Below are positions 5,348 through 12,526 of a stretch of DNA of 21,163 bases, one piece after another. This stretch comes from a virus. A program made the translations under genes and the position numbers. Below the pieces are notes generated by a model, which worked only from the letters and a program-made list of their open reading frames with translations, was not told where the DNA came from and ran no database searches. How positions within the stretch are numbered: position 1 is the first letter of the stretch; each line of letters starts with the position of its first letter. Location of the stretch: the IMG/VR virus record IMGVR_UViG_3300025860_000110, positions 1-21,163 of that record; one strand, 5' to 3'.

Positions 5348-5673
5348 AGTCTTCTTAGTTTGTGGTACAGAGATTGTCCGAGTTTTTCTTTTGGTTTGTG
5401 GTATGACTTTATATATCGAAGGATTGCACCTCGTTTGCGGCCACAATCTTCGTATTCTTTTGCTAGTATGCGAAAAAGCACACGAACTTCATCTACACTT
5501 AGTCCATGTTCGATGGCCTGTGTGTCGTCTTCGTATGTTTTTTGTCTTTGATTGGATGCGCTTATGTTGTTTTCTTCACTCATTGATGTATTACCAAGAG
5601 GTGGAGTTCTGTGGTAGGTGGGCGCAACTACATGCAATCGACTTAGTGCTTCGGTTATTGTTGATTCAGCCAT
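5344..5673 (-). CDS. Hypothetical protein, 109 aa, between E2-like and E1 genes
   Basis: The frame starts MAESTITEALSRL, overlaps the end of the E2-like gene by 19 bases, and is joined to the E1 gene by ATGA. The first half is polar and probably disordered (20-55); the second half is a basic helical region (LSVDEVRVLFRILAKEYEDC, then KRGAILRYIKSYHKPKEK). There is no Cys-His cluster for a RING or treble-clef E3. Its conserved placement inside the operon suggests an accessory factor of the conjugation module, such as an adaptor, but I recognise no family. Confidence 0.75.
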   Translation of the reverse strand: MAESTITEALSRLHVVAPTYHRTPPLGNTSMSEENNISASNQRQKTYEDDTQAIEHGLSVDEVRVLFRILAKEYEDCGRKRGAILRYIKSYHKPKEKLGQSLYHKLRRL

Positions 5674-6518
5674 GATGTAAACTCCATAATTGATTCGTTG
5701 TTAATTTGTTGAAAGAAACCTTTGTCAGCGTTTGTTACACCATTTTCTAAAGTTCTTACAGAACTACCGTCTCTGTTGAACTTTAAGTAATTTCTTTCGT
5801 TATCTAGTTCTCGAAGATCGTTGTTGCACACGCTAGTGTTTAGGTGCTTGATTTGCTTTTTGATTAAAGCTATCAGGTCTCGGTTGTCTATGTCGTCAAA
5901 CTGCTCTACACTGAATGGGAAATCTTCACCAGCGCAGATGTCGCCTCGAGTGAACACATTTGGAAGATTTGGCGCATACGATTGTTTACTGATTGGATCA
6001 TAAACAAAGGCGTAAGGTACTGTTGATCTTTCTGGGCACCCGTTTTTGCCTTTTCTAAAGCTCAACATAAAGAAAAGCCTTAGACCGCTTACAGACGGAG
6101 TCCAGCGTGGTGGAATGTTTAGTTCTTCTCGAAACACAATATCATGTCTTATTGTGTTAAGAGTTGTTCGGTCCCTATAGATTGTTAGGCCATAAGGTGT
6201 ATCTTCTTCTTCGTTTTCTGGTTTAACTCGACTAAGACCAGCGCCTGTGAAATAGAAGTTTCGTGCCTCTACGAAGCATTGATGAAGTGCGGGCTGTCCT
6301 GATGCTACAATGTTGTTTGCCAAGTACATTTCATACTCGTCAGCTTCGTGATCAAAAAGTCCAAACACATAGGGAAACAAGCTTATGTTGAACATAGGCT
6401 TGGCTTTGATAGCGGATAATGCCGCATCTTGGTTGATTAGTATTGTCTCTACTGTTGTGCGGCGATAGAAGTTGCCGTCGGAACGTAAGACGAATTCTTG
6501 ATTTAGTTCTTGGCTCAT
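5655..6518 (-). CDS. Putative E2-like (PRTRC-B/Prok-E2-type) protein
   Basis: 287 aa from the ATG at 6518; longer starts to 6587 run through a terminator-like hairpin. About residues 110-205 recall the Prok-E2 family that includes PRTRC protein B: NIPPRWTPSVSGLRLFFML, then VPYAFVYDP and a LPNVFTRGDICAGEDF block where C195 is the candidate catalytic cysteine within a 'N-V-x3-G-x-I-C-x-G' pattern. The first 100 residues are beta-rich (ISLFPYVFGLFDHE) and unassigned. It heads the operon with E1 and JAMM, which supports an E2-type transfer role. The assignment is by motif and context, and the fold is not proven. The leader has the CAA-rich sequence ACCAAAAACCAAGAACC and no Shine-Dalgarno site. 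Confidence 0.6.
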   Translation of the reverse strand: MSQELNQEFVLRSDGNFYRRTTVETILINQDAALSAIKAKPMFNISLFPYVFGLFDHEADEYEMYLANNIVASGQPALHQCFVEARNFYFTGAGLSRVKPENEEEDTPYGLTIYRDRTTLNTIRHDIVFREELNIPPRWTPSVSGLRLFFMLSFRKGKNGCPERSTVPYAFVYDPISKQSYAPNLPNVFTRGDICAGEDFPFSVEQFDDIDNRDLIALIKKQIKHLNTSVCNNDLRELDNERNYLKFNRDGSSVRTLENGVTNADKGFFQQINNESIMEFTSWLNQQ

Positions 6519-6727
6519 GGTTCTTGGTTTTTGGTTTGTAAAAGCCTGCCGCCTTGCAAGAAGACGGCAGGCACACACATTAATCACTTACTTTTTGTAT
6601 TACTAACACAAAAGATAAGATCAGTGGATGGTGTATCCTTTTTCTCTTGGGGCTGATCTCCTCCCTCACGCTATTGCGATCTTACTATAAAGTCCAAGCA
6701 GTTTAGTGTCATGCTTAGGACGTTGAG
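6519..6727 (-). promoter_or_regulatory. Gap between Ubl and E2-like genes
   Basis: 209 bases without a gene. Besides the terminator hairpin at 6540-6572 it has a 7-bp inverted repeat AGATCAG/CTGATCT (6618-6624 and 6653-6659) and a GGGAGGAG run at about 6660-6667 on the minus strand that resembles a ribosome binding site but has no start codon after it. A promoter for the E2-like operon is expected here; I could not identify one. Confidence 0.35.
6540..6572 (-). terminator. Rho-independent-type terminator after the Ubl gene
   Basis: On the minus strand an 8-bp GC-rich stem GCCTGCCG/CGGCAGGC (6565-6572 with 6544-6551), whose loop contains the extra pairing CTTGCAAG, is followed at once by TTTT (6543-6540 region). 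It lies only 22 bases before the E2-like start, so it could act as a terminator for the Ubl unit or as an attenuator that separates Ubl dosage from the enzyme operon. Confidence 0.65.
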
Positions 6728-7286: not shown

Positions 7287-7601
7287 TCAAGAGCGAGAGG
7301 GACGATAACCCTCAGAACTGTTTGTGTTATCTTCTTGCTTACCATAAGTGACTGTATCAGTCAGCATTGTTGGTGGGTTTACAATTACCTGTAGCAAGCA
7401 AGTCAGGATTGTAAACCAAAGACCTGTAAAGAACGCGGTGATCATGCCGCTAAACGTGCCTACGAAGAGGACAGGTATGCCGAACGTCACAATCACGTCT
7501 AACATCTTCCTTATTTTTAGTGTGCGTCGTAGACCTATGGTGCGTGTAAGCACTAGAAGTAGACCTAGTGCTGAAATGAACGAGAATAATATGATTTCCA
7601 T
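7287..7601 (-). CDS. Small membrane protein, 104 aa, three predicted TM segments
   Basis: The sequence has three hydrophobic stretches: EIILFSFISALGLLLVLT (2-19), about 35-57 (VIVTFGIPVLFVGTF) and about 59-75 (GLWFTILTCLLQVIV). A basic loop (RRTLKIRK, 25-32) lies between the first two, which puts that loop in the cytoplasm by the positive-inside rule. The tail from 78 on is polar. The start follows the 77-aa gene by four bases. Holin-like function is possible, since a muramidase is coded nearby, but three TM segments alone do not prove it. A membrane-anchored regulator or superinfection factor is as likely. Confidence 0.7.
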   Translation of the reverse strand: MEIILFSFISALGLLLVLTRTIGLRRTLKIRKMLDVIVTFGIPVLFVGTFSGMITAFFTGLWFTILTCLLQVIVNPPTMLTDTVTYGKQEDNTNSSEGYRPSRS

Positions 7602-7845: not shown

Positions 7846-8823
7846 CTAGTCAGTGATGTTTTGCTTGATGCGGTTGGCAACAAGGCGTTTGCGACGGACG
7901 GGATCTGTGCGTTTCATCCATGATCCAAGCTCAATATCTATCTTGTTATCTGAATCTAGGTAGCTCATACGAAGGCGACGTGCTGTGTCTTTGTCGTAGT
8001 AGTTGGGTTCGGGTAGGCTGTTTGTGTAAAGTCCGTTGAGAACACCTCCTGATCCGCGTTTACGATCTACTTGGTTGGAGCGCATTTTGTCATCCCATTC
8101 GTCACTACGTGGTGGCGTTCCAATGAAGCGGGCGTCGTCGGGATCACATTCTGCGTCTTGGTAGAATGATTCTGCGTATTCCTTGGACATTGCTTGTTGA
8201 TCGGCTGCGTCAAGGGACTCGTGTTCCATGAATGTGATGTTGTTGCGTTCGTGAGACTCTCCGTAAGCTGTGTATGTTGTAATATCGCAGCTGGTGTAGC
8301 GGATATACTTGTCGACTATTTCGCTAGCGTTGTCTGCTAGCCATTGGTCGGATGCGTGCTTGAGGAACTCTGCTAGTCGTGGTGATGATCCAGCTATTTG
8401 ACTGTGCAAACGATCACGTATAGTTTGACGTAGTCTGGTATTTGTTGAGTTGCCTGTGAATACTTCTTTGATAGCTGCAATTGCGTCTGTTTTTGCTGCT
8501 TGTTCCATTGCTTGGACACAACTGCAGTCACCTGTATGTCGGTCATCTTGTGGGCTAGAGTGCTCTACGTAGTGGTCGTTGTACTCTGCCATCCACTGGT
8601 CTACGATGATGGATACCATGATTTCGTCTGTGTCGCGTGGTACTGTGAGACCTTTGTTGATGTATTTGCCACGAGTACGGATTTTGTAAGCGTGTAGCTT
8701 AGCTGCTTGGAACAGAGAACGCCATGCTGCTTTGTTTTCGTCAGAATAGCGTTCTGTGGAGTTGATGTCTGTGATGATGTTATGTATGTCTGTGTTCATG
8801 TGTATGTGTTGGTTTTGTGACAT
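7846..8823 (-). CDS. Hypothetical protein, 325 aa
   Basis: The start is taken as the ATG at 8823 (MSQNQHIHMNTDIHNIIT), after a CCAATAAA-type leader. Upstream in-frame starts to 8967 would cross the hairpin at 8902-8929 and the end of the preceding gene. The protein is hydrophilic and mostly helical, with many Asp, Glu and Arg residues. It has a region with paired cysteines (GDCSCVQAMEQAAK, about 122-135) and a basic C-terminus (MKRTDPVRRKRLVANRIKQ). No enzyme motif is visible. It is the first and largest gene of a three-gene unit. It could be a DNA- or host-protein-binding early product, but this is a guess. Confidence 0.75.
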   Translation of the reverse strand: MSQNQHIHMNTDIHNIITDINSTERYSDENKAAWRSLFQAAKLHAYKIRTRGKYINKGLTVPRDTDEIMVSIIVDQWMAEYNDHYVEHSSPQDDRHTGDCSCVQAMEQAAKTDAIAAIKEVFTGNSTNTRLRQTIRDRLHSQIAGSSPRLAEFLKHASDQWLADNASEIVDKYIRYTSCDITTYTAYGESHERNNITFMEHESLDAADQQAMSKEYAESFYQDAECDPDDARFIGTPPRSDEWDDKMRSNQVDRKRGSGGVLNGLYTNSLPEPNYYDKDTARRLRMSYLDSDNKIDIELGSWMKRTDPVRRKRLVANRIKQNITD

Positions 8824-8901
8824 ATTAGTCAAACTACTATCTCTATTGTTTTTTATTGGTATATGTTTTGGTCGTTGGTGTCTATTCGTTGAACACCAGA
8901 A

Positions 8902-8929
8902 AGCAAGGGGACTCTTCAGCCCCCTTGCT
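8902..8929 (-). terminator. Terminator-like hairpin after the 75-aa gene (left copy)
   Basis: A perfect 9-bp stem AGCAAGGGG/CCCCTTGCT (8902-8910 with 8921-8929) seven bases after the 75-aa gene. The T tail on the minus strand is only TT. A related hairpin closes the right arm of the inverted duplication at 9646-9677; both contain GAAGAGTCCCCTTGCT. Confidence 0.6.
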
Positions 8930-8936
8930 GTTGAGG

Positions 8937-9164
8937 TTAGCAAGTTACGAGGAAGGTGTCCTTCCAACCGTTTGCCCAGACCACTTCGTCAATTGTGACG
9001 GCAGTGCCACGTTTGAGAGCTGTGTCGAACCAGACCTTAAAGTAATCCCCGTCCGTTGTGCGAACGGTGATTGGGTACTCGCTCTCAGCAGATTGAGGGC
9101 CTACGGCAATGACTTCACCTTGATAGTGGGTTACTGTTGTATCGGATGTTTTGTTATTACTCAT
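8937..9164 (-). CDS. Hypothetical small beta-rich protein, 75 aa
   Basis: The ATG at 9164 (MSNNKTSDTTVTHYQGE) follows ACAACCCATAAAAACA, the leader type of this block. An upstream TTG start at 9215 is in frame but lies in the leader. Predicted strands are HYQGEVIAVG, YPITVRTTDG, YFKVWFD, TAVTIDEVVW and DTFLVTC, which suggests a small beta barrel such as an OB or SH3 fold. It ends in Cys. It is the first leftward gene from the strand switch and forms a single-gene unit. A diverged, frame-broken copy lies inverted at 9394-9639. The function is unknown; being first suggests an early product. Confidence 0.7.
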   Translation of the reverse strand: MSNNKTSDTTVTHYQGEVIAVGPQSAESEYPITVRTTDGDYFKVWFDTALKRGTAVTIDEVVWANGWKDTFLVTC

Positions 9165-9393
9165 TGTTTTTATGGGTTGTGGAGCGGAATTGCTCGTCCC
9201 GAAGGGATCTGTCAAGGTGGAGATTTGGGGCGCATTACAATTGTCGTAGCCGAAATTCGGCTCGATGAGACGATCTTACAAATACTCTACGATGAACGAT
9301 TGACGACATGCACCACATACAAGACGGCATCGCCCCAAATACTACCTTGACAGAGCCCTTAGAGCAATTCCGATCCACAACCCATAAAAACAT

Positions 9394-9639
9394 TGTGAGG
9401 AGGAATAACACAACAGCAGAGACAACAGTGACGTGGATCCACTAACAAGGGGGAGTCAGGGACGTAGGTGCTCAAGCTGATGCGAAGAGCGAGTGCCCAA
9501 GCGCCGTTCGTGCGACGGACGGGGTTCATTACTTAGGTCTGGGGCGGCGCGGCACTCAAATGTGGGACTGACGGTGCGAGTGTCGTATGGGTTGGAGCTA
9601 AGGGGTGGATGGGCGCAAGCCTCGTTTCTACTTGCTTAG
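9394..9639 (+). pseudogene. Frame-broken inverted copy of the 75-aa gene
   Basis: This segment aligns with the 75-aa gene base by base over nearly its full length but cannot code for it. The ATG position reads TTG followed by TGA. A GTG start at 9395, after which a GAGGAGG lies inside the frame, reaches a TAA at 9443 where the gene has a Tyr codon. There are insertions of several bases (near 9430 and 9490) and many T-to-G and A-to-G differences. The copy is more G-rich than its partner. It may be decaying, or it may act as RNA. Confidence 0.7.
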
Positions 9640-9645
9640 CTCAAC

Positions 9646-9677
9646 AGTGAGGGGGTGATAGGAAGAGTCCCCTTGCT
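9646..9677 (+). terminator. Hairpin closing the right arm
   Basis: AGTGAGGGG (9646-9654) can pair with CCCCTTGCT (9669-9677). Against the left copy (AGCAAGGGG) two bases differ, and both changes replace Watson-Crick pairs with G-U pairs, so the RNA stem is kept. No T run follows on the plus strand. Confidence 0.45.
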
Positions 9678-10145
9678 GTAGGGTGTGGTTGTTGGTTTTG
9701 GTTGTTTAAGTGCTTGTGGATGAGAGTGTTGTGGTTGTGGGGTTCGAGATAGGGTGCTTTTGAGGGCGTGTTGTGTGATTTGGTTGGACGAAGCGGAGAC
9801 AACGTCCTGAGCATCAACGAGTTACCGCGTCACTTGCGGCTGGGTTGATGGTCGTGGGGTTTGAAGGGTCATGGAGATTAGTTTGAACGATCAAAGTTCG
9901 GGGGTTGATAGTTGTAGTTCAGAGGTTCTTGGACCTTGGACTAGTGCTCAAGGGTTCACTGTTCGGGGGAACTTGGAGCATGGAGCGGGACTGATGAACA
10001 ACGCGACACGGACAAAGCACCCCCCCCACTGGGGGAAATTACGAAACGGACGACAAAGGGGTCCCTACCGTCAAATCCAATTTTCAATTTTTGGGAATTT
10101 CGGTGTTTTAGTGTACAAGTGTTCAGCAGAATAGGCAATTATTGT
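9678..10145. other. Gene-free G/T-rich stretch at the strand switch
   Basis: 468 bases with no supported gene. The first 100 bases are strongly G+T rich on the plus strand (repeats of GGTTGT/TGTGGTTG). GTTCGGGGG occurs twice (about 9896 and 9961), the second as part of a small GTTCGGGGGAAC hairpin. A C8 run at about 10021 faces GGGGG six bases later. CCCTACCGT occurs at about 10063 and again as CCCTACCGT near 10264 inside the next element. An open frame at 9871-10134 has no family likeness and odd composition, so I do not call it. Confidence 0.5.
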
Positions 10146-10405
10146 GAATCTGTCACACTTATCACACTTGCATCACACTTTTTCGAGACAAGTGTGACTT
10201 ATTAACCAGTACCTTTATCAACGACTTACGTAATTCATCACACAAATCACACTTTTTTTGACCCCCTACCGTTTACCTGTTGTACCCCCCCAAAAAAAGT
10301 GTGATTTGTGTGACAGATTCTCTAAGTCCTTAATAATCATATAATATACTTAATCACACCCCCCCAAAAAAAGTGTGATACAAGTGTGATAAGTGTGACA
10401 GACTT
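10146..10405. repeat. Iteron-like AAGTGTGA array in nested palindromes; origin or operator candidate
   Basis: Nine perfect copies of AAGTGTGA or its complement: TCACACTT at 10153, 10162, 10173, 10247; AAGTGTGA at 10190, 10297, 10371, 10382, 10391. Three variants lie at 10238, 10306 and 10354. The clusters are spaced by 9-11 bases, about one helical turn. An outer inverted repeat pairs 10148-10183 with 10368-10403 (36 bp, two mismatches). An inner one pairs 10238-10260 with 10291-10313 (23 bp, exact). A run of C7A7GTGTGAT occurs twice (10285-10305, 10359-10379). An AT-rich stretch (TAATAATCATATAATATACT) lies at about 10331-10350. The array sits at the divergent strand switch just before the packaging operon. 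Confidence 0.8.
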
Positions 10406-10439
10406 GACAATATGTTCACCACCTGTTTTACATCATAAG

Positions 10440-10976
10440 GTGCCAACCAAGAAACCAGATGGAAGAACCTACGCTGCTGGTAAGAAACCCAAGCAGGTAG
10501 TTAAACAACAAAATGCTAAACGGACTAGGTGTCATCGTAAACGTATGAAAGCAGAAGAAGACATGAAGGTCGCCAAGAAAGAACTTGCTGTGGTAGAGAA
10601 GGATCTCTCGATCAAGCAGCAATTTCTGGACATGATGAGCAAAGCCCCCACCCCAGCAGAACAACGCAAGGCATTACTTGCCATGTTTGCCGAGAAGGGT
10701 ATCAACCCAATTGAAGAGCTACTGGGCTACACTTCAAATGAGGACGTCCCCCTAAAGGAGAGAATTGCGATCTGGAAAGAACTAGCAAGCTACACCCAGC
10801 CAAAGCTTAAGAGCGTAGACGTCCAGCAGAACATTACAGGGGAGATGAAGATAATGACTGTGGACTACAGTAAAGTGTCCAAAGCTGACATGGCGACAGC
10901 AGTTGACGCAGAAATAATTGACAACGAGGACGGATACGACGAGTTTTTGAGTGAAGAAGAAAAAAATGAGTCTTGA
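10440..10976 (+). CDS. Putative terminase small subunit
   Basis: 178 aa from a GTG at 10440 (MPTKKPDGRTYAAGKK), preceded by an AAGG that touches the start. The frame is open to 10386, but that part codes through the palindrome array, so I chose the later start. The N-terminus is very basic (KKPKQVVKQQNAKRTRCHRKR), then a charged helical coil of about residues 34-64, a second helical segment, and a C-terminal part SYTQPKLKSVDVQQNITGEM, as in phage small terminases. The tail is acidic. The role would be recognition of phage DNA for packaging with the large subunit coded 240 bases later. The position before TerL is the main support; sequence likeness is modest. Confidence 0.6.
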   Translation: MPTKKPDGRTYAAGKKPKQVVKQQNAKRTRCHRKRMKAEEDMKVAKKELAVVEKDLSIKQQFLDMMSKAPTPAEQRKALLAMFAEKGINPIEELLGYTSNEDVPLKERIAIWKELASYTQPKLKSVDVQQNITGEMKIMTVDYSKVSKADMATAVDAEIIDNEDGYDEFLSEEEKNES

Positions 10977-11223
10977 ATCAATCGAACAGGCGGTGGCCAT
11001 TCTCGGAGAGCATTTCCGAAACTACGTTGTAATTGCAAGCGACGAGGACAAACCACTGGCCTATGACATAAGGTTCAGCGACCCATACGCAGCATCGGGT
11101 CTTCTTAGCGCAGCATCCAAGTACCATGAAAACTACATCGGCGACGGTGGAGTGGAAGAAGACTGGGAGTGGGCTGAGTGCGACGACGATGACGATATTT
11201 TTGACGACCTAGATGAATATTAG
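10966..11223 (+). CDS. Hypothetical acidic protein, 85 aa, between terminase genes
   Basis: The ATG at 10966 (MSLESIEQAVAILGEHF) overlaps the end of the small terminase gene by 11 bases, and the stop overlaps the large terminase start by 11. Residues 1-60 look folded (YVVIASDEDKPLAYDIRFSD, then PYAASGLLSAASKYHENY). The last 25 residues are almost all Asp, Glu and Trp (EEDWEWAECDDDDDIFDD), a DNA-mimic-like or binding tail. I do not recognise a family with a known role. Tight overlaps suggest a packaging accessory. Confidence 0.75.
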   Translation: MSLESIEQAVAILGEHFRNYVVIASDEDKPLAYDIRFSDPYAASGLLSAASKYHENYIGDGGVEEDWEWAECDDDDDIFDDLDEY

Positions 11224-12526
11224 TGTCCCAGCGCAGGGATGGGAGCCGAGACCTTATCAGCTCCCATTGCTCAAGTACATGACTCAGAAAAAGCGAAGCC
11301 TTCGGGCAGTGGTCGCTTGGCACCGTCGTGCAGGTAAGGATTTGACTTGCGTCAACATTGTTGCGATCAAGGCGCTACAGCGTGTGGGCACTTACTGGTA
11401 TGTGTTGCCCTACGGTAATCAGGCACGCCGAATTGTTTGGAACGGCATGACTGGCGAGGGCAAGAAGTTTATCGACTACTTCCCGAGGGAACTGGTCGAG
11501 AAGAAGAGTGAGCAGGAGATGCGAATCCACCTGAAGAACGGCTCGATCATCCAGCTCATGGGGTCTGACGACCCAGATAAAATGGTTGGGGCAAACCCCA
11601 TCGGTGTGGTGTTCTCCGAGTACAGTATCTCCGATCCAAGTGCGTGGCAGCTGATCAACCCCATCCTAGCGGAAAACGGCGGATGGGCGTTGTTCAACGG
11701 AACGCCTCGTGGCGAGAACCACTTCTACAAGATGCTTCTCAAAGCCAAGTCTGATAGTTCGTGGTACAGCAGCCACCTTTCAGTCAAAGACACTCAGGCC
11801 ATTGCCCCAGAAGAACTGCGGAAAGCTCGTAACGAACTGAACAATGAAGCAAGGTTCCAGTCCGAGTACATGTGCTCGTTCAAGACCCCAGTTGAGGGCG
11901 CGTACTACGGAGCACAGATCAACAAGGCCTACAGGGACAAGCGGATCGTGGACACTATTGCGGTCGACCCACTGCTCCCCGTCCACACCGCGTGGGACTT
12001 GGGGATGGACGACGCGACAACCATTTGGTTCTTCCAGCTATTTCGTAACGAAGTGCGAATCGTAAACTACTACGAAAATAGCGGAGAGGGCTTACCACAC
12101 TACGCGCGAGAGCTACAGAGATGGTCAACCCAGAAGGATGTAACGTACGGGAAGCATTATGCTCCGCACGACATCAAGGTGCGAGAACTTGGTACAGGTA
12201 AGTCTCGCTTGGAGACAGCCCGAGGTTTGGGCTTGAAGTTTACGACAGTCAAGAAGCTGTCGATCATTGACGGCATTGAAGCCGTCCGAAACCTTCTTCC
12301 CAAGTGCTGGTTCTCGAAGACACACTGCTACGCAGGTATTGAAGCGCTAAAGGGCTACCATAAAGAATTTGACAGCTCCAGAGGCGTTTTTCGAAAAACC
12401 CCTGTCCACGACTCCAATTCTCACGGGGCAGACGCATTTAGGACGCTGGCCGTTGGACTTAAGCAGCCATCACTTGAAAAAAAGAAGTCAAAACATGAGT
12501 ACGAAGTATCAAGTATCAGTTGGTGA
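11213..12526 (+). CDS. Terminase large subunit (ATPase and nuclease)
   Basis: 437 aa, the packaging motor. The ATPase half has an atypical Walker A WHRRAGKD (36-43), Walker B with catalytic Glu GVVFSEY (131-137, E136), and the coupling motif FNGTPRG (161-167). The RNase H-like nuclease half has HTAWDLGMDDATT (D262), APHDIK (D320) and HDSNSHGADAFR (D407). It would dock on the portal, cut concatemers and drive DNA into the head. The start overlaps the preceding gene by 11 bases. No intein, insertion or missing active-site residue is seen. Confidence 0.95.
   Translation: MNISVPAQGWEPRPYQLPLLKYMTQKKRSLRAVVAWHRRAGKDLTCVNIVAIKALQRVGTYWYVLPYGNQARRIVWNGMTGEGKKFIDYFPRELVEKKSEQEMRIHLKNGSIIQLMGSDDPDKMVGANPIGVVFSEYSISDPSAWQLINPILAENGGWALFNGTPRGENHFYKMLLKAKSDSSWYSSHLSVKDTQAIAPEELRKARNELNNEARFQSEYMCSFKTPVEGAYYGAQINKAYRDKRIVDTIAVDPLLPVHTAWDLGMDDATTIWFFQLFRNEVRIVNYYENSGEGLPHYARELQRWSTQKDVTYGKHYAPHDIKVRELGTGKSRLETARGLGLKFTTVKKLSIIDGIEAVRNLLPKCWFSKTHCYAGIEALKGYHKEFDSSRGVFRKTPVHDSNSHGADAFRTLAVGLKQPSLEKKKSKHEYEVSSISW

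Follow-up and report, generated by a model that had tools for sequence, protein, structure and literature searches.

In phage phi29, a multimeric p4/p6 complex occupies the divergence of the early and late promoters. The parS sites of P1 and P7 carry an IHF site flanked by inverted boxes with species-specific words, and many plasmid and phage origins are built from repeated sites, IHF and AT-rich DNA. In lambda cosB, opposed gpNu1 R sites lie on either side of an IHF bend (site I1) before terS, on an asymmetric 120-bp element with three sites; across lambda, 21 and N15 the recognition words drift, as does the recognition helix (PMC4669245). In the PLE satellites, origin and initiator change in concert: the iteron words and the DNA-binding domain of RepA vary together while the rest is conserved, and specificities are swapped (PMC8263062). 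The PLE origin comprises three semi-palindromic iterons of ~30 bp, occurs in two replicon types and is served by a RepA_N initiator. The stoperators of Cluster A mycobacteriophages are many copies of one asymmetric word scattered over temperate-phage genomes, with word and repressor diverging between subclusters (PMC6550527).

We analyzed a 21,163-bp fragment of an uncultivated marine phage (a virus of bacteria), hereafter the window, which contains an array of short sites between two diverging gene blocks (Table 1). Like cosB, the array places an IHF bend between opposed sites before terS; unlike cosB, it has twelve sites in a mirror dyad with two IHF sites, and the TerS-like protein stays constant when the word changes. 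In contrast to the PLE origin, no RepA_N-type protein was recognized, and an origin role for the array is putative. Whereas stoperators are distributed genome-wide in one orientation to transcription, the sites here form a single cluster, and no lysogeny gene was recognized in this phage. The role proposed below shares with the phi29 p4/p6 region a multimeric complex at the early/late divergence; the phi29 region has neither an IHF dyad nor a 12-site array, and no p4 or p6 homologue was recognized in this phage. The architecture is composed of known kinds of parts, and we know of no other equal to it.

Table 1. Coordinates of the array, its component sites and the genes discussed, in window positions.
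Feature	Position	Strand	Remarks
Whole array	10150..10401	none	12 half-sites and 2 IHF-like sites in one dyad, centered on 10275.5
Half-site GTGTGACAG	10150..10158	-	mirror of 10393-10401
Half-site GTGTGATAA	10159..10167	-	mirror of 10384-10392
Half-site GTGTGATGC	10170..10178	-	mirror of 10373-10381
Half-site GTGTGACTT	10192..10200	+	mirror of 10351-10359
IHF-consensus site 1, TATCAACGACTTA	10216..10228	+	exact WATCAANNNNTTR
Half-site GTGTGATGA	10235..10243	-	mirror of 10308-10316
Half-site GTGTGATTT	10244..10252	-	mirror of 10299-10307
Half-site GTGTGATTT	10299..10307	+	mirror of 10244-10252
Half-site GTGTGACAG	10308..10316	+	mirror of 10235-10243
IHF-like site 2, TATTAAGGACTTA	10323..10335	-	1 mismatch; exact mirror of site 1
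Half-site GTGTGATTA	10351..10359	-	mirror of 10192-10200
Half-site GTGTGATAC	10373..10381	+	mirror of 10170-10178
Half-site GTGTGATAA	10384..10392	+	mirror of 10159-10167
Half-site GTGTGACAG	10393..10401	+	outermost right; mirror of 10150-10158
TTGACA, -35-like box of presumed terS/late promoter	10404..10409	+	adjoins array
TerS-like protein, 178 aa from GTG	10440..10976	+	first gene of packaging block; assigned by position only
Terminase large subunit (TerL)	11213..12526	+	phrog_2, 1.1e-27
Hypervariable protein, candidate array reader	7846..8823	-	leftward block

The array consists of nine exact AAGTGTGA octamers, spanning 10153 to 10398, and three variants (10235-10243, 10308-10316, 10351-10359). 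The octamer is absent from the rest of the window; 1.2 copies would be expected, and nine were reached in none of 100 shuffles. The initial annotation had counted the same nine and three, and our search places all twelve inside 10150-10401, with single copies at most elsewhere. It had also described nested palindromes, a 36-bp outer and a 23-bp inner inverted repeat. Both are present, the inner exact (10238-10260 / 10291-10313) and the outer near-exact (10146-10181 / 10370-10405), but a repeat search shows them to be parts of one 112-nt, 76% inverted repeat (10149-10260 / 10291-10402), a single dyad with six sites per arm. What had been overlooked are the two IHF-like sites, scored with a published consensus (PMC8942017), and the pair of half-sites at -25 and +142.

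With the first A of ATCAA in the left IHF site (10217) taken as zero, the left-arm sites lie at -59, -50, -39, -25, +26 and +35 and the right-arm sites at +82, +91, +142, +156, +167 and +176. The offsets of every mirror pair add to 117 and its members have opposite orientations; the right IHF site likewise mirrors the left at 117. Random placement, repeated 20,000 times, gave 1.7 mirror pairs on average and never more than 4, compared to the six seen here. Neighboring half-sites are spaced 9 or 11 bp apart, which bears out the helical-turn spacing noted earlier. The second IHF-like site is AT-rich and is immediately followed by TATAAT. An Rfam search gave no match at the gathering score. To the left of the array (~10020-10100), the window and its relatives carry a conserved block with a C-run/G-run hairpin and GTCCCTACC...AATTTTTCAATTTTTGGG.

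The gene layout agrees with the earlier placement of the array at the divergence of two gene blocks, directly ahead of the packaging genes. The rightward block encodes the TerS-like protein, terminase, connector, major head protein and tail proteins, and the leftward block a family A DNA polymerase, a ThiF-like protein and primase-like and helicase-like genes, among others. No phage RNA polymerase was recognized in the gene lists read. A 100-aa protein of a related contig (G008, 29453-29755; L109) was read as sigma-70 region 4-like and has relatives in G004, G007 and G012; the window itself has no match. The minus-strand segment 3474-6958 reads as a PRTRC-like gene set, here carried by a phage. 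Its ThiF-like protein has PRTRC_ThiF as the best NCBIfam match, though at a score under the cut-off; a second protein matches PRTRC_A weakly, and a small third one of 76 aa is possibly ubiquitin-like. At 8893-9686, four pairs of inverted repeats (25-44 nt, 79-94%) occur in mirror order, suggesting that gene 8937-9215, with its neighborhood, is present in a second, inverted and degenerate copy.

Relatives were collected through TerL (80 loci) and through the leftward candidate protein (42). Contigs that cover the corresponding stretch usually have a similarly built array in the same place, ~0.55-1.1 kb before terL. Across ~50 distinct arrays from related uncultivated marine podoviruses, the position before terS/terL and the pair of IHF sites 105-108 bp apart are kept, as is much of the site layout in most. 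Among 46 distinct arrays, the first IHF site is exact in 41 and the second has at most two mismatches in 45 (22 exact); the spacing between them is 105-107 bp in 42-44 and 108 bp in three. Some arrays retain one to five mirror pairs, and two (L059, L168) none by the GTGT-core measure; the count is lower because fewer of their sites keep an exact GTGT core. In eight large related contigs, few of them complete, the words cluster once per contig and elsewhere do not exceed 1-2 per 260 bp. The initial annotation had named comparable clusters within coding regions as grounds for refuting its proposal; none were seen. Judged by overlaps of 127, 123 and 64 bp between their ends, G031, G032 and G033 appear to be complete, at ~42.3, 40.5 and 42.1 kb. 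G008, with two unequal ends that are 80% alike over 1.1 kb, and the partly duplicated G010 both look mosaic.

No comparable array was found in the isolate phages related by TerL that we examined, nor did a second scan for further homologues of the GTGTGAAC group yield any new member. Searches of 50,697 annotated phage records matched neither the array, apart from one 27-bp chance-level match (E 0.5), nor the candidate protein. One close relative with a GTGTGAGCA array (L212, NZ_NZMB01000001.1) lies on a contig binned as Sneathiella sp.; this is a hint only of the host, as binning is no proof.

While this layout is retained, the word itself is re-spelled in nearly all sites between relatives. 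Most groups retain GTGT, whereas the four to five bases after it occur in more than 12 group-specific versions, including GTGTGAYAG, GTGTACCA, GTGTGAACA, GTGTGACCA, GTGTGAGCA and GTGTCTAGT, as well as GTGTCAACA, GTGTCTACA, GTGTCTATG, GTGTCTGTC, GTGTCACAA, TGTAGTCA and TGTCAGG. For the four letters after GTGT, agreement is 0.69 among the sites of one phage and 0.34 with sites of other groups that occupy the same position in the array; shuffling the labels gave a word similarity of 0.34, with a maximum of 0.38. For example, the variable halves of the sites in L047 and L048 are identical at 31 of 51 positions, compared to 275 of 312 in the flanks and 42 of 44 in the core, and their TerS-like proteins are 96% identical despite the differing words. 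Weaker versions of the word occupy positions in register across groups (e.g. GTGTGATTT beside GTGTGACAG), a pattern that looks like graded affinity. With the architecture kept and the word re-spelled in almost every copy, the array looks like a control center read by a fast-changing protein.

The initial annotation had noted no obvious binder in the window. This holds, though a hypervariable protein of 280-325 aa in the leftward block is now the best candidate for the array reader, as yet unproven. It is present in the leftward block of every contig covering that stretch, and its identity is 0.67-0.72 in same-word pairs and 0.36 in different-word pairs. Its structure model is poor (mean pLDDT 62.8) and has no significant PDB match; the three C-terminal helices are predicted at pLDDT ~80-85, and the protein has a variable basic tail. 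A neighboring short, hydrophobic, membrane-like protein (7287-7601, minus strand, and homologues) gave the best word correlation of the genes tested (r 0.76 versus 0.65 for the candidate), so linkage explains much of the covariation, and partial correlation did not single the candidate out. In addition, G008 pairs a GTGTACC array with a candidate protein of the GTGTC-group type, in conflict with the candidate unless the contig is mosaic. Finer markers were also rejected: the Y/R in PEPxY[Y/R] is broken as a word-type marker by L148, convergence of the L147 tail helix to its word group is weak (3/8 positions versus 1/8), and the candidate's tail varies in same-word pairs too.

Other proteins were considered as reader and rejected. 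The primase-like C-terminus hardly varies between word types, and the TerS-like N-terminus is near-invariant across them; the TerS-like structure was predicted at low confidence, with no significant PDB match. The 300-aa PRTRC_B-like protein (5655-6587, minus strand) is only ~43% identical even in same-word phages; it and its homologues (~260-310 aa) are hypervariable, differing to this extent even between phages with other genes 79-95% alike.

Promoter-like elements adjoin the sites. In 49 of 50 distinct arrays, TTGAC[A/T] lies 2-14 bp past the rightmost site, whereas random 90-bp stretches contain it at a chance rate of 8%. For this presumed late promoter, the best match to a -10 is mostly 3/6, and a good -35-like box with a poor -10 fits a promoter that needs an activator or is held off until late. 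As no phage RNA polymerase was recognized, late genes would rely on host RNA polymerase and a regulator. An early promoter was not located; GTGACA within site 10308..10316 forms a weak -35-like hexamer (10310, spacer 16, AATAAT). Taken together, the observations are best fitted by a single protein-assembled control region. Of the earlier proposal, a phage origin or master operator, the part that is well supported is one protein-assembly site, under strong constraint, where the two blocks diverge. Between the two roles, we tentatively favor a master operator, on account of the adjoining promoter box, the location at the divergence and the finding that no phage RNA polymerase was recognized. Such an operator would be a nucleoprotein platform between the two blocks, although this reading falls somewhat short of probable. 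Host IHF would bend each arm and bring together the sites flanking the bend, while a phage-encoded sequence-specific protein, most likely the hypervariable leftward-block product, would occupy the half-sites. The complex would then balance the leftward promoters (early, replication) against the rightward ones (late, packaging and structure), and may serve replication too. Against this, two unequal promoters could be controlled without any mirror symmetry in their operator.

The main rival, a replication origin, has a real though lesser chance of being correct. A phage initiator would fill the half-sites and IHF would bend the arms, whose AT-rich stretches would open for loading of primase, helicase and polymerase; two mirror arms could load two forks. 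The dyad, the IHF pair and the AT-rich arms suit such a scheme, as does the presence, in the leftward block, of genes for a family A polymerase and for primase-like and helicase-like proteins. The cluster of half-sites with IHF and AT-rich DNA is also the only one of its kind in the contigs searched, few of which are complete. However, no known initiator family was recognized, the window proteins scanned include no Rep family, and the primase-like C-terminus is near-constant across word types. GC skew, a check proposed in the initial annotation, is positive on the TerL strand both left and right of the array in each of the ten records giving a result, a comparison confounded by differing codon use of early and late genes. 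This uniform sign is unlike a bidirectional origin; a unidirectional or rolling-circle start is possible. It would also suit the rolling-circle concatemers of a packaging site of the cosB kind, with TerS bound on both sides of an IHF bend before its own gene. The position before the TerS-like gene, the IHF sites between inverted sites and the drift of the recognition words do parallel cosB of lambda, 21 and N15. We nevertheless consider a packaging site unlikely because the TerS-like protein stays almost the same from word to word, its basic N-terminus, where the recognition segment would be expected to vary, being nearly invariant. In addition, the protein is predicted as one long helix rather than a winged helix, and packaging is directional while the array is symmetric. 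Contig starts in a tally of relatives are scattered over ~2 kb with no single shared terminus.

Two further explanations appear improbable. A partition or maintenance site resembling P1 parS, or another recombination-type complex, would account for the likeness to the P1/P7 parS build and for the leftward-block genes resembling plasmid PRTRC genes, but neither the protein scans nor the gene lists read revealed a ParA, ParB, integrase or transposase. Likewise, the reader might be a host protein, with the word tracking host species: the phage reader is only a candidate, and the covariation seen between the word and all genes could stem from host ranges. Against this, near-identical flanks and TerS can go with different words, as in L047 and L048, and a host factor with more than 12 specificities at otherwise related sites would be unusual.

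Returning to the master operator, it is conceivable, though on balance doubtful, that this lytic phage group has a frozen mirror-symmetric IHF complex in which the word is rewritten time and again, in nearly all twelve sites, together with an undescribed family of DNA-binding proteins. If true, co-infecting relatives would be mutually deaf, like the immunity groups of temperate phages, and specificity diversification would extend to phages without recognized lysogeny genes. On a scaffold that stays fixed, the relatives would supply a single protein-DNA code in more than 12 solved 'spellings', and comparing these could reveal the recognition rules. The array would also offer a handle on genome control in an abundant, uncultivated group of marine phages.
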